DNA from: Pilasporangium apinafurcum
Taxonomy: Eukaryota > Oomycota > Peronosporomycetes > Pythiales > Pythiaceae
Length of the DNA: 64,000 nucleotides
Reading direction: 5' to 3'
Assembly (NCBI GenBank): GCA_001600495.1
Contig: BCKE01000026.1
Span: 385,627 to 449,626, forward strand
In this document: positions 2,874 through 35,980 of the stretch, in pieces
Position numbering within the stretch: the stretch's first letter is position 1
Layout: each line of letters begins with the position of its first letter
Notes under the pieces: model-generated
What the model saw: the letters and a program-made list of their open reading frames with translations, nothing else
What the model was told of the DNA's origin: nothing
Database searches by the model: none
Program-made: the position numbers and the translations under genes

Positions 2874-5800
2874 CTAGGTGAAACTGTAGTAGTGACTCCC
2901 ACCTGCACATTGATACCTATTGCCCCCGATATTAATCCATGAATAGCCTGCCTCACATTGCCCCATTGTTCTCAGCTGTTGTTGTCGACGCTCCTCTTCT
3001 GCAGCCTTCCGCCTCATTTCTTCAGCTTGTCTCTGTAGTTCCTCCATTTTCTTTCTCGTTTCTTCTGCTTCACGTTGACGTTTCTCTTTGAGTAGACGTT
3101 CAATTTCACGTTGCTCTGCTGCCAATCGATCTTCATGCTCTTTTAATTTCTTCGCCTCTTCTTCAGCTATCTGTTTCCAATACTGCAAGTTTTCCCAAAC
3201 GGCATCACTTATCCCAGGGTCTCTTCCCGCAGGACCCTCACAGGACTCTGGAGGAAGCTCCTCTTCGGTAAGTTCCTCGATGTGGACGGTGTGCTGCTCG
3301 GTCGATTGAGTGACAAGTGGTACTGGTGCCATCAAAAGGTCTTGCCCCAGTTCTTCTCCAGACTCGTCGGATAATGTATTGAGGCTCGACACAGCCATCA
3401 ATTTGTCAGCTTCTAACCTCGCTTGGAGAAACTCACTCAAGCATTTCACTACGAGGGTCATGGACATCTGTATAACCACTCCAATCTCAATAGGCTTCTG
3501 TGTAGTCGTGTACTCATCGATAACACTGTCGATAACTTTCCTTGCCAAAAGCTCAACATCCCTTGCGTTACCCCAATTATCTATCTTTATCAGCTTGAAG
3601 AAGTAATCCTCCAGTGTGCTACGGTTAATGTCTCGAATTTCATATCCCTTTGACTTCAGCCGCTTACAAAGGACGTCCACACATTCATTTGGAGTAAGAT
3701 CGTGAAAGGGTAACACAACAGAAAATCTGCTTGGAAGTCCAGGGTTGATTCGCACAAGGCTCTCTAGCTCACGTGGATAGCCCGCTAAAATTACAACCAG
3801 CTTCCTCTTGAATGTATCCTCTGTCATCATCTGACAGATTTCATTGAGCGTTTCTCTACCAAATTGGCTTTCTCCCAAACGATAAGCTTCATCAATAAAA
3901 AGGACAGAACCCAATGACTTCTTAAAGAGCTCCCGGGTATCCTTTGCGCTGTTACCCACATAGCGGCTCACGAGATCAGACGCAGATGCTTCTACGATTT
4001 CATTCGAGGATAGTAATCCCAGGTTGTAAAAGAAATCTCCCATACGCCTTGCCACGGTAGTTTTGCCAGTACCTGGGGATCCCTGGAAGCGAAAAGCCAT
4101 GTCAACGTTCTCAAATTTGTCAGCCCCACCTTTTTTAGCATTAAATGCAACGCTATTCTGATACTTCTGCAACTGCGTCACGATCGTCTCACATCCAGTC
4201 AAATCCGCAAACAGCTCTCGCACATCAAATTCGGAGGACCCGGGAGCGGTCCATTGAGGATCAAAGTCTTCTGGAAGGAGCTCTCGATTAGAAACACGGT
4301 CTATTGATGAGTGATGTTGCAGTCTCGCTTGCCGCTTGAGTTCCGCACGGGATAAGAGATTATTTACCGACCCACCATTGCGAAAATTAGGACGCCGTTT
4401 CTCCTTCTCTAGTACTTCGATTGCTGCGAACTGAGCGTCCAGCGCGCATATCATATTCATCTCTGACACCTTCAGGTTAAGAATCTGCCAGAGCTCATCT
4501 TTTGAGTAGTCGGCGAAGTGGAAAGCATCATCAGGGTTGAATCGACCTTTGAGTCCCGGATTTGACTTATCCACTAGCTCACGCATCTGATCCTCATAGC
4601 CCAGCATCAGCACACATCTATCATCTCCTGGCAAGTTTTGGACCTCAGCTACGATTGTACTGATTACTTCTTCACAGTAAGGGTTCTTTGGGTTTTCACC
4701 GGGATAGAGACCATATGCCTCATCAATCACAAGTACTTTGCCTTTTGTAGCTGCGAGGATGCGGTTGGTATTCTTGAGTGACTCTCCTACTGCAGACCCG
4801 ATAAAGTCGCTTGGATTCTTGAGAACTACCTCTCCGTTCGTAAGCAAACCCAACTCCTTCAGGACTTTGCCATAAAGTCCAGCCACAGTCGTCTTCCCCG
4901 TGCCTGGATTGCCCAGAAAGAGTCTGTTCAATGTCACGAACCGCGGATCCTGTCCCAGAAGTTCACGTTCGTAATTGTCATCGACAACCTGAAAAAGTGC
5001 GCGGACAGTTTCCTTCACTTGATCCAACCCTATCATGTTCTGAAGCTTCTTCCAAGCACTACTTGTTTTTAAGACATTCTCTGGTCGTGGGCCAAGGATA
5101 TCCTCTTGCGAAAACAATAGGACGTCCACGTTTGGTACTTTCTCTCTTCTCTCTCGAGACACTCTGGCCGCTTGTCGCTCGCGAATACGTTGCCACTCGT
5201 TTTGGATAGCACCAGCATTACCAAAGCCTCGAGTGCCTCGTCCACGGCCAACTCTCTTCGTTATTGTCCACAACGAGCACTTCGGTTGACCTCTGTCAGT
5301 TCCACCCTGAATATTCGGTTTCGTGTTGCCTGTGAATGTTTTATCCACGACAGCAACAAGGATATCGAAGAGCTCTTCGTCCTTGTAGTCGGCGAAGTTG
5401 AAGACGTACGGAAATCGTCTGGGGAAGCCTTCATTAAACGCAATAAGCTTTTCGATTTCGTCTTGATATCCAGCAAAGGCAACAACAAGCTTTCCGACGC
5501 GATTTTCCATCTCCGTTAGCAAGTAGTTAAGAATTCTTCGTCCATTGAGTTCTCTGTCAGGATCGAGTTGGTAAGCTTCATCTACAAAGAGAACGCCACC
5601 TCCCTTCTGCTCAATACCGTCTAACAGCTTCTTGAGACCGTCAACTCCTTCGTGAACAAGTTTTGAGCCACTGGTCTCCACAAATTCATTCCCCTTCAGT
5701 ACATGGAGATCGACGAGAAATTTTCCATAATGACGAGCGACAGTGGTTTTACCTGTTCCTGGATTGCCACACAGCAGTACACCATAGCGTTTGTCATCCA

Positions 5801-7754
5801 TACGTGCACATTGCTCAATGGCAGTCTGCATGGTGAAATAGATGTCCAAGAACTTCTCTTTCACCGAATCGAGGCCCGTCATGTTCATGAGGCCATCAAG
5901 ACCACTATTTTGTACTGAGGAGTCACGCTTCACTGATTCCCATTGTTCTTTAGGCGTCTCCAACATGTTGCGGATACTTGGTGGCTTCATATTCGTGGCA
6001 TGGCTCACAGCACAAGGTAAATAGAATTCTGTATTGTCCCGGACCATAAACATTAGATCTTTGTTGAAAGGTGCTTCCCGCTGGCAGAGTAGCTGAAGTC
6101 CACAAGTGAAGGATAATAATCTATCATCGTCAGAGATACTGTCGCTCGAAAGCAAACAGCAGACTAAGTGGAGGATAAAACAGTGGCCATCATAGTCAGC
6201 AACTCCACTTTTCTTGAGGTCAGTAGCATGTCTTTGCAGAAGTGGGCTACTTGTGCAAGACGTGTCTTTCAAGAGCCATGCACACAAGAGAAGCAATAAT
6301 TCCGCGTCAGCTTTGAGTTTTTTATCCGTCGATCCACATAAGCTTTTGAAAAAAGGGTAGGCTCCACTTTTGTCATTAGGAAGCATGGAGAGTCCATTTT
6401 TCAGTTCCACTGGAATCGAACTTTGGAGTAACTGTATTTTCGCTGGAGGTTTCTTCCAAAAGAGCCGAAATATGTTTGTCCAGCTGTCGCCATCGTCATC
6501 TGCTACGAGATTTACTAGCTGGCCTAGCTCAACATTGCCGTTCTGCAGTGTGGATACTATCTGTCGCTGGTTTTTTGAAGCTCTACGACGGAGCTCTTCG
6601 CATTTCTGTTGGTATATTCGTTCTTCTTCTTGCTGCTGTTGCTTCAGATTCTCTTGTTCAAGAAAATCCCACACGGATGGCAATGCTGCCAGACTAATTC
6701 GTAAATCCTCAGCGTATTTCTTTGTATTACCCATTCCAGTGTCTTGCAAACGCAAAAGTAGTGCATGAACCCCAGCATCCCATACTAACTGCTTAATGCT
6801 GTGATCGTCGCCTTCACAAAGATTTAACAGTGTTCCAACAGCATACTCTTGCGCCAAAGGCGATCCAGAACTCAAGACATCAATTAGAGGCTTCACACCG
6901 AGTTCATTCGCTATCGCAAGCTTCATCAATTCGTTTTCGTGAGCGATGTTCATGAGTGCTCCAGCAGCAGTTTCGACTTCGCCTGATGTCCCATCTTGAA
7001 GACGATCAAGGAGTAAAGATATGCCATTTCCTTCGGAAATTTTCACTCTATTTGCGCTGTTAAGGGAGAGTCTCCCTAGAGCGAGTGCTCCTTGTAACAT
7101 GACGCTAGTAGAGCCATACTCTAAAGCTGTCAGCAGAGGTTTGATGCCGCCAGCTTCTCCAACGAGGAAGCTGTAATGTGTGTCTGTTGCCAAGTTGGCT
7201 AAAATCCCAGACATGGCCTCTCTCATCTCTAAATACAACATAGCCTGGAGAACTTCAGGGATTCCTCCTGAATCCACAATCGCCTTGCAACAGTAGTCCT
7301 CAAATGACAGATTCCACAAAGCAACAGCTGCCTCGGGGCTTCCTTTAGAAAGAGCGAACAAGAGCCATGGGACTCCACCACTGGCCGCCATCTTGTTCCG
7401 GTTTGATTGGTGGAAAGAAAGCTCCTTCAAGGCTCCAACAGCAGCTACAGAGTAGTCGTCCGTGTTTGCTGACTGTGAAACCGATAGGAGACTGACAAGC
7501 AGCGGAATCCCATCAGCAGCGGCTACAGCTTCACTGAAAAGAGGATCACCGAGAGCTCTAACCCCGATGTCTCTTGCAGCTTTCTCTCTAACCTCTCTGG
7601 TTCCCGTTCGAAGAACATTGACAAGATGAAGGGCGTCTGATGGTGGAGCACTTGGTAGCCCAGGTCGTTGAGGCATTATGGGTGAATATGGTGGTTGCAC
7701 ATGGGGTCCATTTGTCGAAAAAGGCTCAAGCGGCTCAGTATTACTTCTAACCAT
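2874..7754 (-). CDS. armadillo-repeat protein with three CbxX/CfxQ-type AAA+ ATPase domains
   Basis: The product is 1626 residues counted from the first ATG at 7754. ARM-like repeats fill roughly residues 40-360. Three AAA+ modules of the CbxX/CfxQ (SpoVK-like) family follow. Their Walker A motifs GNPGTGKTT, GNPGTGKTT and GSPGTGKTT lie near residues 660, 945 and 1225. The Walker B motifs are LFVDEAYQL, LVIDEAYGL and LFIDEAYRL, and arginine-finger regions read GFPRRF, GLKGRF and GLPSRF. All three modules look competent. The C-terminus has a Glu/Arg-rich coiled coil (about 1530-1600) and then a short Cys/Gly/His tail (CEAGYSW, then CAGGSHYY). Bacterial relatives are ring-forming chaperone or remodelling ATPases such as the Rubisco activase CbbX. 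The substrate here is unknown; ARM repeats usually bind proteins. The frame is uninterrupted and no intron is needed. Confidence 0.85.
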   Translation of the reverse strand: MVRSNTEPLEPFSTNGPHVQPPYSPIMPQRPGLPSAPPSDALHLVNVLRTGTREVREKAARDIGVRALGDPLFSEAVAAADGIPLLVSLLSVSQSANTDDYSVAAVGALKELSFHQSNRNKMAASGGVPWLLFALSKGSPEAAVALWNLSFEDYCCKAIVDSGGIPEVLQAMLYLEMREAMSGILANLATDTHYSFLVGEAGGIKPLLTALEYGSTSVMLQGALALGRLSLNSANRVKISEGNGISLLLDRLQDGTSGEVETAAGALMNIAHENELMKLAIANELGVKPLIDVLSSGSPLAQEYAVGTLLNLCEGDDHSIKQLVWDAGVHALLLRLQDTGMGNTKKYAEDLRISLAALPSVWDFLEQENLKQQQQEEERIYQQKCEELRRRASKNQRQIVSTLQNGNVELGQLVNLVADDDGDSWTNIFRLFWKKPPAKIQLLQSSIPVELKNGLSMLPNDKSGAYPFFKSLCGSTDKKLKADAELLLLLCAWLLKDTSCTSSPLLQRHATDLKKSGVADYDGHCFILHLVCCLLSSDSISDDDRLLSFTCGLQLLCQREAPFNKDLMFMVRDNTEFYLPCAVSHATNMKPPSIRNMLETPKEQWESVKRDSSVQNSGLDGLMNMTGLDSVKEKFLDIYFTMQTAIEQCARMDDKRYGVLLCGNPGTGKTTVARHYGKFLVDLHVLKGNEFVETSGSKLVHEGVDGLKKLLDGIEQKGGGVLFVDEAYQLDPDRELNGRRILNYLLTEMENRVGKLVVAFAGYQDEIEKLIAFNEGFPRRFPYVFNFADYKDEELFDILVAVVDKTFTGNTKPNIQGGTDRGQPKCSLWTITKRVGRGRGTRGFGNAGAIQNEWQRIRERQAARVSRERREKVPNVDVLLFSQEDILGPRPENVLKTSSAWKKLQNMIGLDQVKETVRALFQVVDDNYERELLGQDPRFVTLNRLFLGNPGTGKTTVAGLYGKVLKELGLLTNGEVVLKNPSDFIGSAVGESLKNTNRILAATKGKVLVIDEAYGLYPGENPKNPYCEEVISTIVAEVQNLPGDDRCVLMLGYEDQMRELVDKSNPGLKGRFNPDDAFHFADYSKDELWQILNLKVSEMNMICALDAQFAAIEVLEKEKRRPNFRNGGSVNNLLSRAELKRQARLQHHSSIDRVSNRELLPEDFDPQWTAPGSSEFDVRELFADLTGCETIVTQLQKYQNSVAFNAKKGGADKFENVDMAFRFQGSPGTGKTTVARRMGDFFYNLGLLSSNEIVEASASDLVSRYVGNSAKDTRELFKKSLGSVLFIDEAYRLGESQFGRETLNEICQMMTEDTFKRKLVVILAGYPRELESLVRINPGLPSRFSVVLPFHDLTPNECVDVLCKRLKSKGYEIRDINRSTLEDYFFKLIKIDNWGNARDVELLARKVIDSVIDEYTTTQKPIEIGVVIQMSMTLVVKCLSEFLQARLEADKLMAVSSLNTLSDESGEELGQDLLMAPVPLVTQSTEQHTVHIEELTEEELPPESCEGPAGRDPGISDAVWENLQYWKQIAEEEAKKLKEHEDRLAAEQREIERLLKEKRQREAEETRKKMEELQRQAEEMRRKAAEEERRQQQLRTMGQCEAGYSWINIGGNRYQCAGGSHYYSFT

Positions 7755-8151
7755 CGTTGTCGTGAGCAGGGTCCATGAGCCCTTCAGGCGGTTCCTACGC
7801 AAAATTAAATTCCACTTTGCTCAAATTCTCGAAATAGAAACGCTAATAATTGGAAGTAGTGTGCGCTGGTGCAGTGATAGCGTAGAACAATAGTGGTTTC
7901 AGTAGTTTCAGATTTCGGCCATGCTTGAAAATATGTAGGTTAGTGTAAGGTCCTATTATTGATGATTGTACTGCATTATTAGAGTCACAACACACAAACA
8001 GCATTTAACCGTTTGGTTTCTCCTGTATGAAAGCCTTATTCTTAGGACGACGTTAGTTTCCAACGACAGCTTTGTGATCTTTTACGTTGGGGCTGTGGAG
8101 GAAATGGTGACATTTATTTTTTTTCGTAGCACTAGTTCCTTCAGCTGTAGG

Positions 8152-15269: not shown

Positions 15270-18200
15270 ATGGAAGGAATGGAAGAAAAACCACGCAGCG
15301 TAGAAGGAGAAAATGCTGTGGCTGGTGACGGACGAGCGGTGCAGCGTAGCCGCTCGCTGGAGGAAAAACCGTCCGCTCCAGCGATGGTGACTCGGCAGGC
15401 ACATGCCGTTAGTGTAGACAGTTATACACCGCCCCGCATACACGCAAGCTCAACTTCAACTCCCACCGTCCAAGAATCACCAGCAGAAGCGGAGAATCTG
15501 GATGATTTGGATGATGACGAGCTGCAGGAACGTCAGCGGCGCCTTTCACAGCAGGCAATGGCGGCGGCTCTGCATCTGCCATCCACGGCGGGCGAACCGT
15601 CATCCACGGTATGCGAGAAGTTGGCGCCACTGGACGAGACCGAAGAAGAGCGACAGCAGCGGGAAGAGAACTGCACTGTATTTAAAGATTTAATAGAGAA
15701 AGCCAATAACAAGCAGACGGTTTCCTTTGCGGCATTCCGTCATCGTCCGTCGTCCAAGAAACGCAAAGGTTATGCCGAGACCCAACTCGACCGTCAAATC
15801 AACATGGAGCTACTGCAGGCGTATCTTGTATATGCGCGATCGGTAGGACATGAACCGGATATCGACATCTCGGGAGAGAGAGGCAAGTTTCTCTGTGATG
15901 GTGATGAAGAAGATCTGCAGGAAGAACGACCGTCGTTCATCCAAGAGCGGCAGGCCCTAGACGAACACCAACATTGGTGGACAAAGTATTTAGGTACACG
16001 CTACAGCAAGCGCCGCGGTTGTGTGCAGTTCTGGACGTGGTTCTTCATTGGTGTCATTGTGTTGCTGATCATGTCGATCTGGATCGCTACTATTCACTTG
16101 GATGAAGTCATGCATTTGGGTGCCTTTGATGAGCATGATGTGATCGTCACCGACGACTTCACGTATCTTTACTTGCGTGACGACGTCTCTTTCGAGATTG
16201 ACTACAAAGTGGAATCCACGATCAATGAAAACACGGACGTTAACAAGACTTCCTTCCAGGTGATGCTGATGGGTAGAAGCGACTTTGAAGATTACAAGAA
16301 CGGCAATGACTTTGAATACGTGGCCAAAGCCTCAACACTGCGCACAACCTACGCAGATTTGCCTCGCACGCGCATCGAGAACGACGATCCCATGTACTTT
16401 GTCATCCAGCCGTGCTACATCGCCAGGAATCCAACGTTTGACTACTGTCAAACCAAAAAGTTGCCAACTCCGGTGAGTGCACATCAGAAGATCTACAAAC
16501 TCAGACACCCAACATATCCTACGAGTATGAATGGCATCAACTTCACAAGCATTTATGTCAACCCAAGACCAGACAAATGCTCCGACTCTGGCTGGAAAGG
16601 TGGTGGCTACGTGCTTTTGTTTGTTCCCTATATCGTGCTCATGCTCTTCGGTCTTCGCATCCTCCAGATGTGCTTCCGATGTGAAAGCTTCAGAGATAAT
16701 CTTGAACGCAAATACAAGAAGGAAATTGAGATCCCAGAGAACGAAGTGGATTACTGGCAACCAATGCCATGGGATCGAAAGGTACCCAAGACACGTCTCT
16801 GTGGTCCGTGCTGTTGGAAGAAGTTTCGTCGTCCATTTGAACCATTTTATACATGGTGGCGTCATGAGAACTATTTCACTTGGATCTTCTTTCCTTACCG
16901 GAATGAACGACTGTCTAGGGGAGAGCGCGCTATCATTATCGCATGTTCTCTCTATGTGACATTCTATGTACTATTCATTATCGTCCTGGTCCGGGATGAC
17001 GCGCAAGACAACATCTCTGTCTTTACAGGCGTGATTCTGTTTTACTTCCTTGTTATGATCTTGCCATCCGCTGGTAAGGCCATTTTTAAAGAAATCTTCA
17101 AGCTCATCTTCCGACAACGACGCAAGTTCTATCGTCTCAAGGCTGCGGGTGGAGATACTGAGAGTTTTTCCACTGGGTTAGCGTTTTCTGCACAATTATT
17201 GGTGGCTGTGTGCATCACACTGACGCAGTTGCCCATGATATACATCTGGCTTCACCGAAGCTGCACATTCCTTCGAACGTTCATTTACTTTGGTGTGTTG
17301 GCTGCAATCACGCGTCTCTCTATTCTGGGCTTGGTGCTAGATTTTGCCTGGTACCTCATCCTCAAGACGTGGGGCTGGAAAGACTTGTGTCCATACTGTA
17401 CTGAGCGACTCGTGCACTGCAACTGTTTTAATGATGAAATGCTTGTGATGGCTGTGGAGCGTGTTGGACCCAAGTGGGAGTTGATCCAAATGATGGATCG
17501 ACTACTATCGAAGCATCGCAATCACCCGATGCAATTTGATCAGTACACTCCAGAGCAATTGCGTGAGCGATGGGATATCATTGTCGACCGTGCGCATAAG
17601 CACATGGGAAAAATGGAGAAACTCGAGGCATATCGTGAAAAGAAGCGATTGGATCGGATTCGAAACCGAAGCCAACGACGCAGCTTTGTCGATGCCATCA
17701 CCTTTCGACGGAGTTTTGTGGAGGATGACACTATTAAAGACAACAAGGGTGAGCGTTTAGACTCTGATGGCGACGATGTTACCGAACGTGAAAGCAGCAG
17801 CAGCGATGAACCGCCGATGTGCTCACTCCGTGAAAAGAAAATCTTGAAAGTTAATGAGAAGATCGAGTTGGACAAGTTTGAACGCCACTACGACTCAAGC
17901 ATCGTCGATGTTTTCCACTCGATGCGTCGAGCGATATCGAGACGCCGACGTCACTTACGTAGAAAGAAGAGACAAGAGGCTGCTGATCGTGAAGGAAGTG
18001 GCGACATTGAAGACGATGATAACGAGGAACGCGAACGCCAGGACACTTTTGGCAGCAGTATGAGCAGCGGCAGTGGTGATGGCGAGACAATGTGGGTCTA
18101 CGACACGCCCGAAGAGCGGCTGCAGCGACGTGAGATGGAAGAATACCAACGTAACCGGACGTTCCAAGTGTTGAAAGATTATGATATTGAGACAGTGGAT

Positions 18201-18575
18201 CCAGAGCCTAATGCTCCAGGCCGATTCATTTTGTTCAGTCCAAAGTCCAAAAAAGATTCCAAGAAGGTGCCGCTGCTTCGCCAGTTTTCACGACAACGCA
18301 CGATGCCAAGAGATGATGAGATCGTGATTGTAGTGAAAGACGACACTCCGAAAGAGGAAACCTCGCCAGCAAGATCGCACACTGTTCATGAAGAAGCAGA
18401 TGAGTATGATGGCTATGAATCCTCGACATCCGTGGTGTCGCGGTCGACAGTGGGAGCTGCTATAGCTCCAAATAGTAAGACCTACGCGGTGATGGAGAAG
18501 CCAAGGACCCTGATGCGCAAGATGTCGTCGTCTGCAAACACGTTTGCGTCCTGGGCCTTCAAGTACGATACGTAG
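15270..18575 (+). CDS. large polytopic membrane protein, paralogue B (unknown family)
   Basis: The product is 1101 residues and shares the architecture of paralogues A and C. It has a disordered N-terminus with the TEEERQQREENCTVFKDL block, a first helix near residue 260, and a cysteine-containing loop (VIQPCYIARNPTFDYC). About five more helices, the WQPMPWDRKVPKTR segment, a CPYCTERLVHCNC cluster and a charged C-terminal tail follow. It lies in tandem 1.8 kb downstream of A. Its DNA is diverged from A overall, but stretches around 16670-16890 match A almost base for base, suggesting an older or smaller conversion tract. The ATG at 15270 is the first in frame. The function is unknown; a membrane transporter, channel or receptor would fit the topology, but nothing in the sequence decides between them. 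Confidence 0.85.
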   Translation: MEGMEEKPRSVEGENAVAGDGRAVQRSRSLEEKPSAPAMVTRQAHAVSVDSYTPPRIHASSTSTPTVQESPAEAENLDDLDDDELQERQRRLSQQAMAAALHLPSTAGEPSSTVCEKLAPLDETEEERQQREENCTVFKDLIEKANNKQTVSFAAFRHRPSSKKRKGYAETQLDRQINMELLQAYLVYARSVGHEPDIDISGERGKFLCDGDEEDLQEERPSFIQERQALDEHQHWWTKYLGTRYSKRRGCVQFWTWFFIGVIVLLIMSIWIATIHLDEVMHLGAFDEHDVIVTDDFTYLYLRDDVSFEIDYKVESTINENTDVNKTSFQVMLMGRSDFEDYKNGNDFEYVAKASTLRTTYADLPRTRIENDDPMYFVIQPCYIARNPTFDYCQTKKLPTPVSAHQKIYKLRHPTYPTSMNGINFTSIYVNPRPDKCSDSGWKGGGYVLLFVPYIVLMLFGLRILQMCFRCESFRDNLERKYKKEIEIPENEVDYWQPMPWDRKVPKTRLCGPCCWKKFRRPFEPFYTWWRHENYFTWIFFPYRNERLSRGERAIIIACSLYVTFYVLFIIVLVRDDAQDNISVFTGVILFYFLVMILPSAGKAIFKEIFKLIFRQRRKFYRLKAAGGDTESFSTGLAFSAQLLVAVCITLTQLPMIYIWLHRSCTFLRTFIYFGVLAAITRLSILGLVLDFAWYLILKTWGWKDLCPYCTERLVHCNCFNDEMLVMAVERVGPKWELIQMMDRLLSKHRNHPMQFDQYTPEQLRERWDIIVDRAHKHMGKMEKLEAYREKKRLDRIRNRSQRRSFVDAITFRRSFVEDDTIKDNKGERLDSDGDDVTERESSSSDEPPMCSLREKKILKVNEKIELDKFERHYDSSIVDVFHSMRRAISRRRRHLRRKKRQEAADREGSGDIEDDDNEERERQDTFGSSMSSGSGDGETMWVYDTPEERLQRREMEEYQRNRTFQVLKDYDIETVDPEPNAPGRFILFSPKSKKDSKKVPLLRQFSRQRTMPRDDEIVIVVKDDTPKEETSPARSHTVHEEADEYDGYESSTSVVSRSTVGAAIAPNSKTYAVMEKPRTLMRKMSSSANTFASWAFKYDT

Positions 18576-19327: not shown

Positions 19328-19624
19328 TTATCTGGCACGCTGGCGCATTTTTCGGCGCTTGCGACGTAGACGACGCATGCGCTTCTTGCGCCACTTGGCA
19401 CGCATGCCACCATTGACGGAGAGCAGCATCTTGAGCGTGTCAGCTTCTTCGATGCCGTAATCCGCCAAGGAGCCGGATTCAAGTTGCTTGCCGGCGCACA
19501 CCAAGCGGAAGCCCGAGATGAATTCATGGTCTTCCACAAGCTGCTTCACCGAGGCAACCGAGGCGTCCGACGCCACGGAGAGGGTGAGTGGAGCCCCCGT
19601 GAGGGTATCGACGAAAATCTGCAT
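19328..19624 (-). CDS. ubiquitin-like domain fused to ribosomal protein eL41
   Basis: The product is 98 residues. Residues 1-73 form a ubiquitin-like domain starting MQIFVDTLTG. It keeps AGKQLE (the ubiquitin Lys48 region) and ends LLSVNGG. Directly after the Gly-Gly comes a 25-residue, almost wholly Arg/Lys peptide (MRAKWRKKRMRRL, then RKRRKMRQRAR) that matches eukaryotic eL41, normally made as a free 25-residue protein. Ubiquitin fusions to eL40 and eS31, and FUBI fusion to eS30, are established; processing at Gly-Gly frees the ribosomal protein. By analogy, cleavage here would release eL41 beginning with its usual Met. The domain is not ubiquitin: the Ile44 position is Val and the two Arg of the RLRGG tail are Ser and Asn, so conjugation is doubtful. 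Neither part needs a frameshift or intron. This appears to be a genuine fusion gene. Confidence 0.9.
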   Translation of the reverse strand: MQIFVDTLTGAPLTLSVASDASVASVKQLVEDHEFISGFRLVCAGKQLESGSLADYGIEEADTLKMLLSVNGGMRAKWRKKRMRRLRRKRRKMRQRAR

Positions 19625-20338
19625 GGTTTCCCCCCTGGATGCTCAGATGCTATATAGAATATATACAGTAAGACACGATAAGTCCAACCGTCCGTTCCAT
19701 CTTCATCAATCACGATGCTTAGACGTACCCGAAACGATGTTCCTAGCAGAGCAGTCAGCAGAAAGTGAGCTCTCCGCCGCCAGCGTCCATAGGATTGATA
19801 GGCGCCAAAACCTTTTCAGAGCAAACCATTTCATAAAAAATAGCCCATAAACATAAGTACAATTTTAACTATAAAAATTATATTAGTGAAAATCAGCATA
19901 TTAAAATTTATATATGGATAGCACATTTTGTTCTTTCCTGTAAACATTCTATGGGCGGTCCTTGCAATACTGACCAACCAATATAGAATTATCCATACTG
20001 CCCAATATCCAAGGGCAGGTCGAAAATATAGTGATCGCAACATTAAATTAGGAAAATTTTCCTAATTTCGAGGTAGCTGATCAAAAAATCACATCGCGCA
20101 CATCTTCAACTTTGGCAGATCATTGAAAAATGCCAACACTTGCAGGCTGATCATTTGTGTCTTATTTCTTCTACTCATGGACACTTCACGTCATTAACTT
20201 ACACAACGCGGGAATCTGCGCTGTATTTCATACCTATTCCTTTCTTGAAGAACCAACAGACGTGTCTGATATTTGAGAACGATGGAATGTACTCGCCCAG
20301 GTGTAGTGTTGGAGCTAAACAATTTCAGATCTTTGTGC
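19625..20338. other. AT-rich intergenic stretch
   Basis: This holds the promoter side of the Ubl-eL41 gene and the 3' flank of gene C. Bases 19831-20045 are strongly AT-rich. The open frame there is low-complexity and I reject it as coding. Confidence 0.5.
20045..20068. repeat. 24-bp perfect palindrome
   Basis: AAATTAGGAAAA is followed immediately by its exact reverse complement TTTTCCTAATTT. It lies in AT-rich intergenic DNA and might be a protein-binding site, a hairpin or a transposon remnant. Confidence 0.8.
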
Positions 20339-23300
20339 TTACACATCATACTTTAACGACCACGCCAAGTTACTGGCAGATGCTGACATCTTCCGCAAAA
20401 GAGTCTTTGGACGTTGTACCACTGCGTAGGCCTTGGTAGTAGGTGGAGCAGTTGCATCAGTGTCCATTATGGCAACACGATCTCGTTGCTCGCTCTCACC
20501 ATGCCCGTCCTCATCGTCGCTTTCAGAAATTGCGGTGATGTCTTTGCCAGTGTAATCGTTTACCACAATCACAACATCGTCTTTGGTTGCAACAGAATCC
20601 TGACGCGTCAGTAACGGCGTCTTCTTCGAGTTCTGGCGCAGGAGTATCCTCGATGTTTGGCGGGAAAGGAAAGAGGGTTTCTTGGAAAGCGGTTGTGATG
20701 CGCCTAATGCATTATTTGCACGATTGTCGGCAGTTTCTGTCAATGGCACATATTGGATGTTTCCATCGGCATCCTCAGTAGCTTCGACACTTTCAATGTC
20801 GTAGTCGTCTAGCACTTGAAACGTGCGTTTGCGCTGCAAATTTTCGAGCTTTCGTCGTTCTAGTCGCTGCTCCGGAGTGTCGTAGATCCACATCGTTTCG
20901 CCCGCCTCGGTACTGTCGATCTTGATGTCAATTGGTCTATGTGTTGGCTCATCTGTAGCATTCTTCTTCTTATGACGACGTCGAATTGATAAAGCTCTCC
21001 CCACAGACTGAACTACCTCGACGATTGTGGAGTCATAGTGTTTTTCAAATTTGTCCAGCATAATCTTGCTATTAATCGCCAGAATCTTCATTTCGCGCAA
21101 CGAACATATTGTAGGACCATTAGTAGAGCTACTCTCTCGATCGGTTTCATCCATTTCATCAATACCATCTGCTGCATCTTTGATAGCTTGGTCATTTTGA
21201 TTACCTGCACCCGTATAATCCGCATCTACTTGTGTTTCTTTCTCCTGCTTGCCTTTTCCATTAGCAGGCGACTCAGTATGGCTAAGAAATGAAATAAAAC
21301 TGCGGTGATTTTGCCTGTAGAGTTGCTCTTGTCGCTTTTTTTCTCGACAAGCTTTCAACTTTTCCATCTTCTCCATGTGCTTCTCTGCTCGTTCCACAAG
21401 TATCTGCCACCTCTCATGCAGTTGCTCCGCTGTGTAGTGCTCGAACTGTGGTGGATAGTTACGATGCTTAGCAAGAAGTCCATCCATCACCAAAATCAAG
21501 TCCCACTTCGGACCCACTTTCTCTACTGCCAATACAAGCATCTCATCATTGAAACAGTCACAATGTGCCAATCGCTCTGTGCAATAAGGACACAGATCTT
21601 TCCAACCCCATGCAGAAATCACAAGATACCAAGCATAATCTTGCATCAATCCGAGAATCGAGAGACGTGTAAATGCAGCAAGCAAACCAAAGTACATGAA
21701 TTGCTTCAGAAATGTGCAACTTCGATACAACCAGATGTAAAACATCGGTAACTGAGTAAGTGTGATGCATACACCAACCAGAATCTGTGCAAAGAATGCT
21801 AATCCAGTCGAAAAGCTCTCAGTATCACCACCTGCTGCCTTCAGACGAAAATACTTGCGTCTTTGTCGAAAGATGAGCTTGAAGATCTCTTTGAAAATAG
21901 CCTTACCAGCAGATGGCAAGATCATGACGAGAAGATAGTAGAGAACCACACCAGCAAATACTGAGAAACCATTCATGCTATCATGAATCATGACGATAAT
22001 GAAGAGCACATAGAATGTCACATAGAGTGAGCATGCTACAATGATGGCACGCTCTCCTCTTGAAAGTCGCTCATTTCGATATGGAAAGAAGATCCAAGTG
22101 AAATAGTTCTCATGACGCCACCATGTATAAAACGGTTCAAATGGATGACGAAACTTCTTCCAGCAACATGGACCTAAGAGACGTGTCTTGGGTACCTTTC
22201 GATCCCATGGCATTGGCTGCCAGTAATCCACTTCATCTTCTGGGATTTCGGTTTCCTTCTTGTACTTGCGTTCGAGATTATCTCTGAAGCTTTCACATCG
22301 GAAGCACATCTGGAAGAAGCGGAGTCCAAATAGCATCAATAGGAGATAAGGAAGAAAGATGATCATGTAACCACCACCTCTCCATCCTGAGTCACTGCAT
22401 TGGTTTGGCATTGGATTCACGCTAATGTACCTAAAAGAGAATCCCGTGGAACGTGTAGTGGTCGTAGGGTGGCCCAGCTGATAAATCTTTTGACTTGACC
22501 GAACAGGTGTAGGCAACTGTCGTGTCTGACAGTAGTCGGCTGTCGGATTTCTCGCTAAATAGCACGGTTGGATAACGAAATACATCTCGTCGTCATTGTT
22601 GATATGAACACGCGGCAGTTTTGCATAAGTGGTACGCAACGTACTACCGGCTGCAACGTAGTCAAAGTCGTCCCCTTCCACGTAGTCTTCAAAGTTGTCT
22701 TCGCTTAGAAGCAGGACTTGGAACTGGGTCCGATTGCCATTTATAGAATTGTCACTCAGCGCTTCAATTTCGTACGTGATGTCAAACGAAACTTCGTCAC
22801 GCAGGTGCAGAAATGTGAAGTCGTCTGTCACTACTACGTCATCTTTCACAAATGCGTCTAAATGCATTACCTCATTTAGATGAACAGTAGCAAGTGAGAC
22901 AGCCATCACTACTGCGACGATCAATCCGATGATTAGCCACGCCCAAAATTGCACACACCCACGCCGTCTGCTGTATCTTGTCCCAATAAATTCTGTCCAC
23001 GTGTGGTTCAGCTCCTCCAGCATGGGTCTGTCCTTGATGATGGACATCAGACCTGTTGTAGCATCTGGAGTTCTCACATGCGAATCCTCAAACGTCTCGT
23101 CTGTCGTATCAAACAACGGCTCGTGACCAAGGGATTTAGTGTATGCGATATACGCTTCCATCAGCTCCGTGTTGATCGATTGATCCATATCTGTGCGCAC
23201 AGACTCTTCCTGTGGCCTCTGCATCTGCTTAGGCATCTTGTGGCGAAATATCGCAAAGGGCACTGGCTGATTGGTTTTTGCTCTGTGGACAAGATCTTCA

Positions 23301-23725
23301 AATACTAAGCGATTCTCCATCTGTCGCTGTCGCTCGCCTGCAGATTCGCCTTTTTCCAATGGTTGATTATTGTATGTCCATCGACCATCTCGATCGTCCG
23401 CATTCAGACCGAGTACAGCAGCTAATTGTGCCAGTCGTTTTGTTCGCTTCTCTTCTTCATCTTCGCTATCAGATCTGCGACCAAACAGCCGCTCTGTAAA
23501 ACTCGCTCGACGCGTGCGCGATTGATGCGTAAGACGGAGTTCCTCCGGCAGTATCTCCGTCAACTCTAGCTGTTCATACAACTGCTGGTGTTCTTGCTGT
23601 AACGGGGAGGACGCTCTTCGGCGTCGACTACCGCCGGTTTCATCCTCGATACTGGTGGAGTGCGTATTTAAGCTGTAGACCTCGTAAGCATCCGTATGCT
23701 CCACCGCAGTCGCTTTCTTCTTCAT
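20339..23725 (-). CDS. large polytopic membrane protein, paralogue C (unknown family)
   Basis: The product is 1128 residues from the ATG at 23725; the frame stays open upstream to about 23797 without an ATG. It has the same plan as paralogues A and B: a polar N-terminus with the SAGERQRQMENRLVFEDL block, a first helix (about residue 270), a cysteine-containing loop, five more helices and a CPYCTERLAHCDC cluster. The C-terminal tail is charged. It lies on the opposite strand from A and B. Its membrane core (21450-22344) is nearly identical in DNA to that of A, while the N- and C-terminal thirds are clearly diverged. That pattern is expected from gene conversion between inverted copies. Product function is unknown. 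Confidence 0.85.
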   Translation of the reverse strand: MKKKATAVEHTDAYEVYSLNTHSTSIEDETGGSRRRRASSPLQQEHQQLYEQLELTEILPEELRLTHQSRTRRASFTERLFGRRSDSEDEEEKRTKRLAQLAAVLGLNADDRDGRWTYNNQPLEKGESAGERQRQMENRLVFEDLVHRAKTNQPVPFAIFRHKMPKQMQRPQEESVRTDMDQSINTELMEAYIAYTKSLGHEPLFDTTDETFEDSHVRTPDATTGLMSIIKDRPMLEELNHTWTEFIGTRYSRRRGCVQFWAWLIIGLIVAVVMAVSLATVHLNEVMHLDAFVKDDVVVTDDFTFLHLRDEVSFDITYEIEALSDNSINGNRTQFQVLLLSEDNFEDYVEGDDFDYVAAGSTLRTTYAKLPRVHINNDDEMYFVIQPCYLARNPTADYCQTRQLPTPVRSSQKIYQLGHPTTTTRSTGFSFRYISVNPMPNQCSDSGWRGGGYMIIFLPYLLLMLFGLRFFQMCFRCESFRDNLERKYKKETEIPEDEVDYWQPMPWDRKVPKTRLLGPCCWKKFRHPFEPFYTWWRHENYFTWIFFPYRNERLSRGERAIIVACSLYVTFYVLFIIVMIHDSMNGFSVFAGVVLYYLLVMILPSAGKAIFKEIFKLIFRQRRKYFRLKAAGGDTESFSTGLAFFAQILVGVCITLTQLPMFYIWLYRSCTFLKQFMYFGLLAAFTRLSILGLMQDYAWYLVISAWGWKDLCPYCTERLAHCDCFNDEMLVLAVEKVGPKWDLILVMDGLLAKHRNYPPQFEHYTAEQLHERWQILVERAEKHMEKMEKLKACREKKRQEQLYRQNHRSFISFLSHTESPANGKGKQEKETQVDADYTGAGNQNDQAIKDAADGIDEMDETDRESSSTNGPTICSLREMKILAINSKIMLDKFEKHYDSTIVEVVQSVGRALSIRRRHKKKNATDEPTHRPIDIKIDSTEAGETMWIYDTPEQRLERRKLENLQRKRTFQVLDDYDIESVEATEDADGNIQYVPLTETADNRANNALGASQPLSKKPSFLSRQTSRILLRQNSKKTPLLTRQDSVATKDDVVIVVNDYTGKDITAISESDDEDGHGESEQRDRVAIMDTDATAPPTTKAYAVVQRPKTLLRKMSASASNLAWSLKYDV

Positions 23726-23791
23726 CTTGCGCTGCCGGTTTCGATATGCAGTGCAGGTACCGCAAGTAAAGTTGTCGAGCGTTTGCAAGTT

Positions 23792-23832
23792 CACCAATCA
23801 GACGACCGCATCAGTTCTATTTTCCAATCAGA
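23792..23832 (-). promoter_or_regulatory. two CCAAT-box-like motifs upstream of gene C
   Basis: Read on the minus strand, TCTGATTGGTG (23792-23802) and TCTGATTGG (23824-23832) lie about 70 and 100 bp before the ATG of gene C. They match the motif upstream of A and B. Confidence 0.45.
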
Positions 23833-27517: not shown

Positions 27518-27803
27518 ATCAATGAGGAACAGAGCATCAGGAAACGACGATAACGTGATAGATGAATGTACCCATTCCCAGTGTGGCCCTCCAGGATCCG
27601 AACTTAACAGTCTGTTATGTACGAACTTAGTGCTCGTCAGTTCCCACAGCCATTGGTTGTGAAGTCCTACCTCTATTATTATATATCCTCCCAATACTTC
27701 TCATTATTAAAGTAATATATGTTAGAGGTATAGGAGGCATTGGCTCGCATAGCACTTCCATACGTTACCAAGTCGTCAAGAATCAAAGTTCACACACGTG
27801 ACG

Positions 27804-29131
27804 ATGTCGCTGACGCTCTCGCTGCCCACACCCCCCGCGTCGTTCGCTAAAGACTCTGAGGTTGTCGTCGGTCTCGGCGGCTACTTCGCCCAAAAGCGCT
27901 TCGAGCCGTTCGGCCGCGCCTACAACCGCCGCGTCAAGAACGCCGCACGTGGCCGCTCCGCTAGTTGCGAATCACTCGACGATGCTGAAATAGCGCGCGA
28001 CACGCTCCGCAAACAGGAGGCTGCAATCCTTAAGAAATACCGTAAGAGTATCCGTGGCAAGAACTTCCTGGACCTTACAATGTACCAGCAGCTGGGTCTG
28101 TCGGACATTGGCTTTGATGTGACTGAAGAGCAGATCAAGAAGGCGTACCACCGCGTGCTCATCGAACACCATCCAGATAAAACGGGCAAAACTGAGAATG
28201 ACCCCAACTACTTGGCGGTGCAAAAGGCATTTACCACGCTTATGGACCCTCAGAAGAAACGTGCTTACGATTCGCAATGCGACTTCGACGAATGGATCCC
28301 TACGGGCACGGAAAAGATTAAGGAGAATGATGGTACAGGCAAGTCATTTTACGATTTATATGGGCCAGTGTTTGAAGCCAACGCGCGGTTCTCGGAGAAG
28401 ACACCCGTGCCGAAGCTTGGGGATGACAATACCGACATTGAGACGGTCTACGAATTCTATGATTTCTGGCATAAATTTGACTCGTGGCGTGACTTCACAC
28501 ACGACGCGGAACATGACGTGGACAGCGCCGAACACCGTGACCACAAGCGATGGATGGCCAAGAAGAACGAAGCAGTCGCCAAGAAGAAGAAGAAGAAAGA
28601 GTACGCTCGTCTGGCCAATCTGGTTGACCGCGCCTTGGCTGTAGATCCTCGTATTCGCCGCGTGAAACAGGCCGAGAAGGATAAGAAGGAGCGTGAAAAG
28701 CGTGAAAAGGAAGAGGCCATTCAACGTGCGTTGGATGAAGAAAAGCGTGCGGCTGAAGAAGCCGAACGTACCCAACGCGAGAAGGAAGAAGCCGAGAAGG
28801 AAGAGCGCAAGAACGCTAAGATGGCCAAAGAGAAGCAGAAAAAGCTGTTCCGTAAGGTAAAGAAGGCGTTCCGTGAGCTGATGACTGCAGCTGAAGAACA
28901 AAATTTGGAAGGCGCCATTGATATCATCAAGACTGAATCGATCTGTGAATCGGTGGAAATGGAGGAGTTGCAGAGGTAAGCTTGTTGTTTTGTGGAGTGT
29001 GTGAGTGGATGCCAGCTAATATGCTTTTTTTTATGTGACTTTGTAGCCTTGTGAATGCCATGGGAGGCAGCGTCGATTCTCTCAATCCCAATGGTTTGAA
29101 TGATGTCGCCGCAGTGCTGGCCAAGATCTAG
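27804..29131 (+). CDS. ZUO1: zuotin/DNAJC2-type J-domain cochaperone
   Basis: Exons 27804-28975 and 29047-29131 give 418 residues; the 71-bp intron has GTAAGC...TTGTAG ends. A J domain lies near residues 92-165 with the HPD motif (EHHPDKTGK, about residue 120) that stimulates Hsp70 ATPase. Before it is the zuotin-typical FLDLTMYQQLGL segment. A highly charged Lys/Glu helix (about 270-355) matches the ribosome- and rRNA-binding part of zuotin. The length equals fungal zuotin and lacks the SANT domains of animal MPP11. Zuotin works with an Hsp70-like partner as the ribosome-associated complex, helping nascent chains fold in the cytosol. The ATG at 27804 is the first in frame and the second exon supplies the last 28 residues. 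Confidence 0.88.
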
Positions 29132-29575: not shown

Positions 29576-31393
29576 ATGGTATGTAGAGAACGACAATTAT
29601 GCCGCTGCAGCAGCCGATAGCGACTATGAAGCTCTTATTGACTGTGTTGATATTATTTGAATGTGAAATCGCTTACAGGGTAAGAAGAAACCGTTTATCA
29701 ACAAGAAAAATGCGCAGCACTTCCATGTAGTGCACCGTAGTCAGCGCGACCCGAAAGCCAATGATCCCGAGGCGTCCAAATACGTCCTGCTTTCCTCCAC
29801 TGTACGTGCTCAATTTGCGATTGTCTCCCAATGTATAATGCATAAAAGCAACGGATGGTTTGATGGATTTCTAATAAGAATTTCTATCGTTGCAATTCAT
29901 CTGGGTTGTTGTAGCAACAAGTAGAATTTCGATCAGATGGCGAGGAATCCGATGACGACGACTTCAGTGACGATGACATGCCTGATCTCGTGGATTCGCC
30001 TCGTGCAGGTGCGTCTACGCAACCAAGGGTGCTACAGAAAGCGCAGAGCAAACAAAAAAGCAAAGCCTTTTTCCCCACGCGCAAAGTGCGCTTTGGCAAC
30101 GTCGAGGCTGAAGATTTGGTGGATGAACATGGAATGGTGCGCGATGGTTACGATTATTCGCAACATATGAAGGAAATGGGACAAGGCAAGTTCTACTCGG
30201 CTGATGGGCAGTTCCAGAGCCAAAGTGTGTTGGCAAAGCGCGTTGAACTACCAGAAGATGTGCTCCCGAGTGTAGAAGAACAGGACCGACTGCTAGACGC
30301 AATTACGCTAACGACGGAGGTTATGGACTCGGATCTTCGCGAAGCTCTGGTAAATGACGAAGCGTTTGAAGAATTAGACGACGATTTCGTGCTGCAAGCC
30401 GCCAATGGGAATGAGGATGACGCGAACGACGGGTTTGATTACGATGCGCACATTGCGAAGCTTATGGAAGCTGCGAGTGGTGTGCCCAAATTCCGTGGGA
30501 ACCTGTCGGATGATGAAGAAAAAGATGAGTATGATAGTGAATATAGTGATGAGGAAGAAGAACTAGACGACGCAGACAAAGAAGAAGAACAGCGCGCATT
30601 GGATGCACTCTTTGAGAAAACACTGGCGGAGGAATACGATGACGACCAGCTTGGCGAATTAGAGGATGACGATCCAGAGACACGAGGCGAGTTGTTGCTG
30701 GAAGGCGAACTTTTGAACGCCATTGTGGATGATTTTGTGCAGGTACGACAGGAGATAATGGATGATGAAGGGAAACTGGGCAACCCACTACGCACTGGAA
30801 ACAGATTGAAACAGATATTGGAAGAGTGTGAAGCTGAGCGGGCATTGGATGAAGAAAATGAAGAAGAGGATCCCGTGGTGGAGGAAGATCCCGAAGTGGA
30901 ACGCGAATTACAACGCATGTTTGAACGGAATGCGTACTTGGCCTCTCGTGAGCAAGAGCAATGGGACTGTGAGACAATTGTCAGCACGTACTCGAACTTG
31001 GACAACCATCCGACCGTATTGCGAGAAGAGCCATTGAATAAGCGCAAGAAAAAGAAAAAAAGCGCTGCATCAGACAGCAGCAGTGACACCTCGTCGGTAT
31101 CGAATAACAAATCGCAAATCTTGCTCTCACGCAAAACAGGGATGCCATTGGGTGTGTTTGAAGTCCCGAAGAAGGTACACGAGACGAGTCAGACAGCGGT
31201 GTCGGTCATGCACATTCAGCCGAAGAAGAAGGATGAGACAAAGGAGGAGAAAAAATTGCGCAAAGAAGCTGTACGTTTGCTCAAGAGCCAGCGGCGGCAA
31301 GAGAAGAAACAATGGAAAACAGCGTTTAAAGAAGAAGAGCAGCGCCAGTCAACGCAAACTGTCGGAGGCAAAGTGTCGGTTTTTAAGTACTAA
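29576..31393 (+). CDS. LTV1: LTV1, 40S ribosomal subunit assembly factor
   Basis: The exons are 29576-29578, 29679-29801 and 29915-31393, giving 534 residues. The first exon is the ATG alone. After a 100-bp intron (GTATGT...TTACAG), exon 2 reads GKKKPFINKKNAQHFHVVHR and SQRDPKANDPEASKYVLL, the conserved LTV1 start. A 113-bp intron (GTACGT...TTGTAG) follows. Exon 3 begins QQVEFRSDGEE and contains the signature LPEDVLPSVEEQDRLL and FEELDDDFV. The middle is acidic and the C-terminus basic (RKEAVRLLKSQRRQEKKQW). LTV1 is a non-ribosomal factor of late pre-40S particles, needed for assembly of the small-subunit head and export. The splice joins are consistent in frame throughout. Confidence 0.92.
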
Positions 31394-33129: not shown

Positions 33130-35980
33130 ATGGGGGGTGGCCTCAAAAATTGGGGACCCACGACTGTAATTTACCACCCACTATTGTAAATTACGATCTG
33201 TGTATTTTCGAAGGGAGGTTTTTTGTTGGTTTCTGGTACGTACTCTGTGCTCATCTTCAAATTGGCAAGGTTTGGGACGGATGGCATAATCGCATCGAAC
33301 CCTTCCAAACATCGATGTTGAGGTTTTTCATAAGCATGACTCCCGACTCGAAGATACGAAGATGGTTTTTTGTGCAAGAAGCTGCGAAGGGGGCGTGTGG
33401 ACAAACGATTGGTCGATTGGCAGCCAATGAGATTTCGAATGCGTGGATACCGTAAACTACGTGGCCACAGGGCGGCTGACTTTTGGGATGGAGGTAGATG
33501 GACCATCACTCTAAATTATTGTGTTGTATCAGGTTGTTGGTGTTGCACTTCTCATTCACCAACACTCTGGACAGATCCCAGCTGCGAGGAGAGGGGTTGA
33601 AAACTGGACCCATTTTACATGCTTCAAAGTTTTGTTTCGACTTGCTTTGATGACATCATTTGCAAAGATTTCAAAACCCCGAAAGCCTAAAAAAAATAGA
33701 TCTTCCACCCTCCATACCGGGCAGGTGACCAGCAGATCGTCCAAGGCATCAAAGGTGGGAGAGAGTCCCTCTCCTCCTTTGCTTTGCTGCCTCATGTGAT
33801 GCTTTTTTTGAAAAAAAATGCACTAGTAGATGAGCAAGTGGAATGAATGGATCGTCGTGGCTATCCGCTGCTGGGTTAGATCGCTCTATGCACAAAGGGA
33901 CACGGCAGCCAACAAGGTATGAGCAGATGCCTTGTCCAAAGGTGGTGCAGTGAAGGATACTGGGAGGCAGCTCGTAGATGGGATTCGATATCAACCACAT
34001 GAATTTTTTTTTCCATGCGAGAGCGTCAACATTGTAAACTTGAAGGATTGCGAACGACCTGAATCTTGAAAGTGAAGGACCTATTTTGTGACAATGCTGT
34101 CTTTGTCCTACGATGTCACGCAACAACTAGCATTCTTGGACAAACACCGAGTATGTGTGTGTGTGTTGTATGCGAAAGGGGAGGGAGCGTGCCAACCTGG
34201 GCGACATAGAACCCAGAAATACCGGTTTTCTTACAACCCTAATCTACCGTTGGACTGAATGATGTTGGCATGTTGCCGTAACAAAAACAAGACGCAAGTG
34301 TAGGTTCGAGCGATAAGTGGGTTAACTTGCCTAAAATTGGCCGACACTGGTAATCAGCTGTGTGTGACACATGCGACGTAAAGAGGATGGGTGGGGTGGA
34401 CCACACTATGAACAATTTGGAACGTTTGCAAGTTGCATTTTTCTGTATCCAGTAAAAATCCTTTGTGAAACGTCTACACACTTGTCTCACCTCTCCCGCT
34501 CTCTCTCCCGCAATCCTGCTTGATGAGCGTCAACAAGCATGGATGGATGGGTACGAGTGCTCTAGTTGTGTGGATGCTGTGTCTCCAACTAACTCACTCA
34601 TTCCATTTACTCTACTTCTTCCCAGTTTTCTTGTTTTTCTCTGCGCTCTCTGAACGGAACAATATTGCCGTTTGAGTTGCACTTTGGTATCCATCGAAAT
34701 TCCTCGCAGAGCTTCAACTCTGTTCGGTGATGTTCGTTTCGATTGTATATTGTTCGGAAATGATCAAGTCGACATCAAAAGAGTCTCTTCTAAGTTTATC
34801 CATCAAAGTTAGAGTGGTTCTGTTTATTCTTCTCTCGTGTTCCAGCGATATATTTTGTGCATGGTGGTACAACACATCGCGCCTTGACGCATTGATACAC
34901 AAACATGATGGTTCTTTATTTTTTTGCTTCCTTGGGTGTTTGCGAAATGTTACCAATCACAGGCGTGTAGAACTACATTGAAGCATTTGTTTTCACGGAA
35001 GAACCAACATCCATTACTCTAGAACTTGTAAACGTTCGATTATTGTTCGTAGTCGGAATGTGCTTGAAAGAGTGCAAATGTGGACTATTCCTTGCTCGCA
35101 ACAAACTATAGAAGAAACGGAAGTTTTCTGCTGAAGCGAGTGCAAAGAACCATAGAGATGAAAAAGAAAAAGAATTGTTAATATCAGCACTGTTGTCTCT
35201 ACCGCAAGACGAACCATCGCTTTCTGTACTTGTAATTAGATTGTGATGGGAAGGGTGTGTGTGCAGACACTAATAACATTATAGCACGATACCTACGTGC
35301 ATCTTCATTCATTTTCAATCCAAGTCCAGTCGACATATCAGTGTGGGTGGACCTTCACTTGATGCCGCATCCTCACCCGACGCTTCCGCTCAACTCGACC
35401 AAACTTAGCCGCTGGTGCTACTTCAACATGAAGCCACAATCACTTTACCGACTTTTTTTTTCTGGATTTTAGTAGCTGCTTTTTCAAATCGTATGCAACC
35501 TACATGCACATGGTACCAAATATAACCTGCCAAAGCATGGACGGACAATCTTGTTTAATGGCTACCCCGCTGGACAGTTGTGGCTGACGAAAATTACATC
35601 ATGAAAATTTTTAGAATAATTTACCAGCCACAGTTGTGCGAAAAAACAACCCATGATAAAAAAATTCCGGAAACGATACAAGCCTAAATGGCCAGTTTGT
35701 TGACCGAAGATGGCATGAATGATAACTGAACCCCAACAGGTTGCATGTTGAATGTTTAACATACATGCGCACGTAGCCATCGATCTTTTATTTTATTTTT
35801 AGCTAAAGATTTTAGCGACATGAGATCAAGCCAACAGTGGCACCATCAAATTTTCTAGGTGCCTTATATCGGTACAGAACGGTTTGCACAAAACCGGTTT
35901 TAGTACAGTTCTATTGCAGTATACTGAGGAGTGTTGGTCGGTATACCATTCGTGTCCGATCCGACAATACGAGGGTAAAA
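33130..35980. other. 2.85-kb gene-free region between divergent HSF and HDAC genes
   Basis: No supported gene on either strand; open frames are short and without recognisable content. Seen: a near-repeat of TGTAATTTAC / TGTAAATTAC at about 33165-33194 and a GT-rich run at about 34155-34170. In a window this compact the length is unusual. It may hold long regulatory regions, untranslated exons or a degraded element. Confidence 0.5.

Follow-up and report, generated by a model that had tools for sequence, protein, structure and literature searches.

A divergent ubiquitin-like domain fused to ribosomal protein eL41 in the oomycete Pilasporangium apinafurcum

The window analysed here, a stretch of 64,000 nucleotides from contig BCKE01000026.1 of P. 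apinafurcum, carries on its minus strand a short gene that encodes a ubiquitin-like domain (Ubl) joined to ribosomal protein eL41. Features of the gene are summarized in Table 1. Its frame is unbroken over 98 codons, with an in-frame stop 21 bases upstream of the ATG, and the eL41 part opens with its customary Met directly after Gly72-Gly73, without a linker. Pfam recognizes both halves: ubiquitin (PF00240) at residues 3-69 (E 5.4e-9; 36.1 bits against a cut-off of 25.4) and Ribosomal_L41 (PF05162) at residues 74-96 (E 3.9e-8; 33.5 bits against 22.3). The initial annotation, which left the strand unstated, had described a single uninterrupted frame in which a 73-residue Ubl ending in Gly-Gly is followed by a 25-residue eL41, and translation and the two Pfam matches confirm it. 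With Gly72-Gly73 abutting Met74 of a ribosomal protein, the gene has the layout of the processed ubiquitin-ribosomal protein fusions.

Table 1. Features of the Ubl-eL41 gene and its upstream region, in window coordinates
Feature	Coordinates	Strand	Basis
Complete Ubl-eL41 precursor ORF, 98 aa	19328..19624	minus	Translation; Pfam on both halves; codon and GC3 bias
Start ATG and stop TAA of the precursor ORF	19624-19622 (ATG); 19330-19328 (TAA)	minus	Translation
Ubiquitin-like domain, residues 1-73, SVNGG end	19406..19624	minus	PF00240; ubiquitin identity; modelled fold; Foldseek
Gly72-Gly73/Met74 junction, predicted cleavage site	19403..19411	minus	Sequence; cleavage inferred
eL41 (eS32 in some PDB entries), residues 74-98, MRAKWRKKRMRRLRRKRRKMRQRAR	19331..19405	minus	PF05162; eL41 chains of solved ribosomes
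Candidate 5' leader intron, GTACGT ... CATCCAG, 94 nt	19635..19728	minus	Motif scan; inferred

Both parts of the gene carry a coding signal. The G+C content is 58.9% in the Ubl part and 61.3% in the eL41 part, while the 300 bases on either side have 39% and 43%. At third codon positions (GC3) it reaches 75% and 64%, respectively, compared with 50.5% for ten long ORFs of the window pooled (range 46-64%); only the Ubl value exceeds that range, the eL41 value lying at its top. Under a codon model trained on ten long ORFs of the same window, the Ubl scores +24.5 bits and the short eL41 part +5.3 bits, and the two other frames of the same strand score -18 and -23 bits across the ORF as a whole. In antisense, the three frames give +13, -0.4 and -58 bits, and the positive score of the first counts against the explanation that we favour below. 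The possibility that a sequencing error joins two frames, named at the outset as a way in which the reading could fail, is unlikely because both halves show coding signal in one and the same frame. The N positions of the window (1241-2140 and a single base at 11549, the nearest) lie at least 7.7 kb from the fusion ORF.

The gene lies between two paralogous ORFs (15270-18575, plus strand, and 20339-23797, minus strand) that converge on it; they encode 1101 and 1152 amino acids with 58% identity, appear by eye to include hydrophobic segments, and give no hit in Pfam at E 0.001. A zuotin-like DnaJ protein is encoded at 27798-28979 (plus), followed at 29978-31393 (plus) by a weak match to LTV (low temperature viability; E 4.6e-4, below the Pfam cut-off), and there are therefore further, possibly ribosome-linked genes near the eL41 gene. 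Elsewhere in the window, an ORF at 35837-38533 (plus) combines ankyrin repeats and then a histone deacetylase domain in one frame, and armadillo-type repeats and several AAA ATPase modules share a 1642-residue ORF at 2874-7802 (minus). The run of 900 Ns at 1241-2140 is an assembly gap, and the ORFs that cross it (54-2246, 1121-2305 and 1228-2223) are unreliable as given. Rfam, at gathering cut-offs, and ARAGORN returned no matches in the window.

Upstream of the gene, a motif scan found a candidate leader intron with a GTACGT donor at 19728; an alternative acceptor (TAG) ending at 19650 would give an intron of 79 bases. Splicing out the candidate intron would take away two ATGs that lie upstream of the start, at -82 and -76. 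Since GTACGT is found 31 times in the 64 kb when both strands are counted, the match may be due to chance. In Phytophthora infestans, 62% of the ribosomal protein genes are reported to have introns toward the 5' end, most often no more than 10 bases from the start codon (PMC4696810), a parallel that is suggestive only. Ribosomal protein promoters of P. infestans are described as carrying CCAAT boxes in 83 cases out of 85 (PMC4696810); within the 576 bases upstream of the fusion gene CCAAT is found in reverse orientation only, at -358 and -382. The consensus of the oomycete core-promoter motif, allowing up to two mismatches, is present 20 times in the window where 19.75 are expected.

The 25-residue tail matches eL41 almost completely, as had been proposed: its best match in the PDB, the L41-like chain 9vth_Lo, is identical at 23 of 24 aligned residues. 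A PDB search with the tail retrieved 27 distinct sequences at E values up to 10, 24 of them at 0.01 or below, and all 27 are named L41, eL41 or eS32 (one also 'unknown wheat germ 60S protein'). Ten of the 27, with lengths of 33-41 residues, have 8 to 16 extra residues before the matching part, and the N-terminus of eL41 therefore tolerates a short extension. The peptide has a charge of +17 and, besides its PF05162 match, the form expected of eL41, a basic helix of 25 residues (residues 73-97 in the model described below). It is thus a small, all-helical basic peptide nearly identical in sequence to other eukaryotic eL41; those are most often annotated alone at 25 residues or carry the short extension just described, whereas here eL41 is fused to a Ubl.

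Published structures place eL41 beside h44 in the small subunit, where it makes bridge eB14 (PMC5693986). In an archaeal 30S subunit, eL41 has an extension at its N-terminus that lies buried in a cavity formed by h27, h44 and h45, contacts P-site elements, and leads into a helix equivalent to the 25-residue form of eukaryotes, the stand-alone 25 residues being the commonest annotation (PMC7005279). Residues 1-14 of Babesia eL41, which are missing from human eL41, fit the density (PMC12642447). One study describes eL41 as present in mature 40S and not in pre-40S, and its incorporation is said to occur in late cytoplasmic pre-60S maturation (PMC10175282). It has been proposed for archaea that eL41 is overlooked owing to its small size (PMC7005279), and the protein lacks annotation in Babesia divergens (PMC12642447).

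The N-terminal half belongs to the ubiquitin superfamily of beta-grasp domains by its PF00240 match and by a model predicted from the single sequence. The best of five AlphaFold2 models has a mean pLDDT of 79.7 and a pTM of 0.56, the other four having mean pLDDT values of 61.2 to 48.4; it shows the beta-grasp order of elements and a separate C-terminal helix at 73-97. In Foldseek, the best 50 of 1461 matches are all ubiquitin itself, its linked forms, its variants or complexes containing it, with a best E value of 9.2e-8 among the matches listed and a TM-score of 0.85 normalised to ubiquitin 1ubq. By global alignment the Ubl is identical to ubiquitin at 35 of 73 positions (48%), to NEDD8 at 26 of 73 and to FUBI at 23 of 71. 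It keeps ubiquitin's Phe4, Leu8, Lys27, Arg42, Gly47, Lys48 and Gln49, with Ile44 replaced by Val and Val70 by Leu. It has neither the RLRGG tail nor the seven lysines of canonical ubiquitin: Lys6, 11, 29, 33 and 63 are absent, leaving only K27 and K48, and the tail reads SVNGG, with R72 changed to S and R74 to N. The alignment agrees with the initial annotation in that both C-terminal arginines are replaced. The domain is acidic, with 4 K+R and 10 D+E (net about -6), compared with 3 and 11 in FUBI and 11 and 11 in ubiquitin.

The initial annotation had suggested a FUBI-like chaperone or solubiliser; the term FUBI-like can hold only as an analogy and not by sequence, although the domain, like FUBI, is acidic with few basic residues. 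Across 156 species, Fubi is reported to conserve strictly a Phe4 patch, Val40, Pro47 and an RXLGG tail (PMC10611586). Three of these four features are absent from the Ubl, and FUBI identity was rejected: the tail is SVNGG, ubiquitin's Arg42 and Gln49 stand where Val40 and Pro47 would be, and the one shared feature, Phe4, does not discriminate since ubiquitin has it also. FUBI is furthermore encoded in the eS30 gene, whereas the partner here is eL41, and Fubi's two-residue N-terminal gap is absent. What the gene shares with FUBI-eS30 (FAU) is a divergent N-terminal Ubl with few basic residues and a Gly-Gly end, placed before a small ribosomal protein. By its sequence the Ubl is therefore a derived form of ubiquitin, to which it is closer than to FUBI, and no orthologue of the latter; the FUBI-like charge make-up would be convergence. 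Processing of FUBI-eS30 itself is reported to depend on USP36 (PMC8354635).

That the gene is a further ubiquitin-like/ribosomal protein fusion, as first suggested, stands; the kind, however, is already in print. Martin-Villanueva et al. 2021 mention a few ubiquitin-eL41 fusions from Pfam (PMC8122580), and eL41 is among the ubiquitin fusion partners listed in PMC11354881. The former cases likewise have ubiquitin joined to eL41, their species and domain order being given in Table S2 of that paper; the survey set a threshold of 80% identity to yeast ubiquitin across no less than 80% of its length, which the present Ubl would fail at 48% identity. Novelty is limited, a few ubiquitin-eL41 fusions being known. 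Among the titles and abstract openings of the literature matches listed, none names a fusion of eL41 to a divergent Ubl. The Phytophthora survey of ribosomal protein genes refers to L41 orthologues in P. infestans, and its abstract, sections 11 and 12 and passages make no mention of an L41 fusion (PMC4696810). Like Ub-eL40 and Ub-eS31, the gene encodes a ribosomal protein as an N-terminal ubiquitin fusion to be released after Gly-Gly (a release that is predicted here), but those two carry canonical ubiquitin and are a main cellular source of it in yeast (PMC8122580), whereas the present Ubl is without the tail arginines and most of the lysines.

Relatives were sought in prokaryotic, plasmid and viral collections, where misses say little about eukaryotes. 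Protein scans gave 29 pattern matches in viral contigs and 134 in genome contigs of the prokaryotic collections, with no confirmed relative in either. A degenerate DNA pattern for eL41 (AKWRKKRMR plus the first two bases of a further Arg codon) had no match in the viral and genome contigs, distant blastn of the fusion locus had none among the plasmids, and a search of viral contigs baited with the two flanking paralogues gave 52 pattern matches and no confirmed one. With tblastn the plasmids yielded one record, a bacterial ubiquitin family protein matched by query residues 1-72 only. It is encoded on plasmid pRUMAL01 of Ruminococcus albus 7 (L001:1923-2663), an unexpected place, and is 46.7% identical over those residues.

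We consider it probable that the locus is an intact eL41 gene whose product is made as a precursor with a ubiquitin-derived carrier domain that a deubiquitinase removes. The precursor would be translated as a single chain in which the Ubl folds first; the enzyme that then cuts after Gly73, most likely a USP- or UCH-type deubiquitinase, would release eL41 with its ordinary starting Met, able to enter the ribosome. In the archaeal structure eL41 has its N-terminal end directed into a cavity of the rRNA near the P site, so that cleavage at Gly73/Met74 is the expected maturation step and probably an obligatory one: a short peptide fits this cavity, whereas an uncleaved folded domain of 73 residues should not. 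Release by a deubiquitinase, as the initial annotation proposed, is by this structural argument the likeliest processing. A Gly-Gly/Met junction is also what polyubiquitin offers to deubiquitinases. A deubiquitinase-binding surface on the Ubl is plausible from its sequence because Phe4, Leu8, Arg42, Gly47 and Gln49 are kept and Ile44 and Val70 are replaced by Val and Leu; against this, the replacement of both arginines in the tail may weaken many deubiquitinases.

Once released, the Ubl would most likely be a short-lived partner in the folding, solubility and expression of the +17 peptide, not a conjugated modifier. A protecting partner for such a free peptide is plausible, and the domain may act as a chaperone that E1 presumably does not recognize any longer. 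For yeast eL40 and eS31, ubiquitin is described as having a minor but positive cis-chaperone role and, if it is not removed, as obstructing assembly (PMC8122580).

The released Ubl could instead be a functional modifier or signal, conjugated to targets by a dedicated E1-like enzyme, in which case the fusion would tie its supply to ribosome synthesis. The domain has retained the Gly-Gly end and, in the model, the ubiquitin-like fold. Replacement of Arg72 by Ser and of Arg74 by Asn disfavours the E1 routes of ubiquitin and NEDD8, and with both arginines gone we regard a conjugated role as unlikely, even though FUBI, with its RXLGG tail, has been discussed as a possible modifier (PMC8122580 among the sources).

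We find it similarly improbable that the fusion is a secondary or decaying copy, with working eL41 supplied by a stand-alone gene elsewhere or by initiation at Met74. Met74 does have a G at -3 (GGTGGCATGC). The precursor's own ATG, however, has an A at -3 (AAACCATGC), three ATGs (one in frame) lie between it and Met74, and the frame is intact with coding bias in both halves. Six-frame phmmer and an ungapped scan of the window recovered the known copy and gave no further convincing match to either half; the next-best phmmer matches had E values of 0.45 for eL41 and 2.5 for the Ubl. For an oomycete host, moreover, ribosomal proteins of P. infestans are reported as single-gene save six, and L41 is outside those six (PMC4696810).

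It is very unlikely that the Ubl stays on eL41, tethered at the subunit interface in the manner of the uncut Ub-like-eS31 fusion of Giardia (PMC8122580) and of the short eL41 extensions of archaea and apicomplexans (PMC7005279, PMC12642447) and of ten PDB sequences, since the archaeal extension is a short peptide within the cavity, and the Giardia fusion has an extra Ala between the glycines (PMC8122580) that are intact here.

We put it at just short of even odds that a copy of a ubiquitin gene became a dedicated, non-conjugating carrier of eL41 independently of FUBI, losing the arginines for E1 recognition and most lysines, turning acidic and keeping Gly-Gly, so that a FUBI-type Ubl arose by convergence on a late-joining peptide. 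The reason for the pairing of ubiquitin with certain ribosomal proteins is presented as an unsettled question (PMC8122580). The gene adds a rarely seen partner, eL41, to the ubiquitin-ribosomal protein fusions. A divergent Ubl that has the cleavage signal without the features for conjugation would separate the carrier role from that of ubiquitin supply and, should the fusion recur across a lineage, would add to FUBI another case of independent origin. The gene also suggests how eL41 could hide under an annotation that names nothing but a ubiquitin-like protein.
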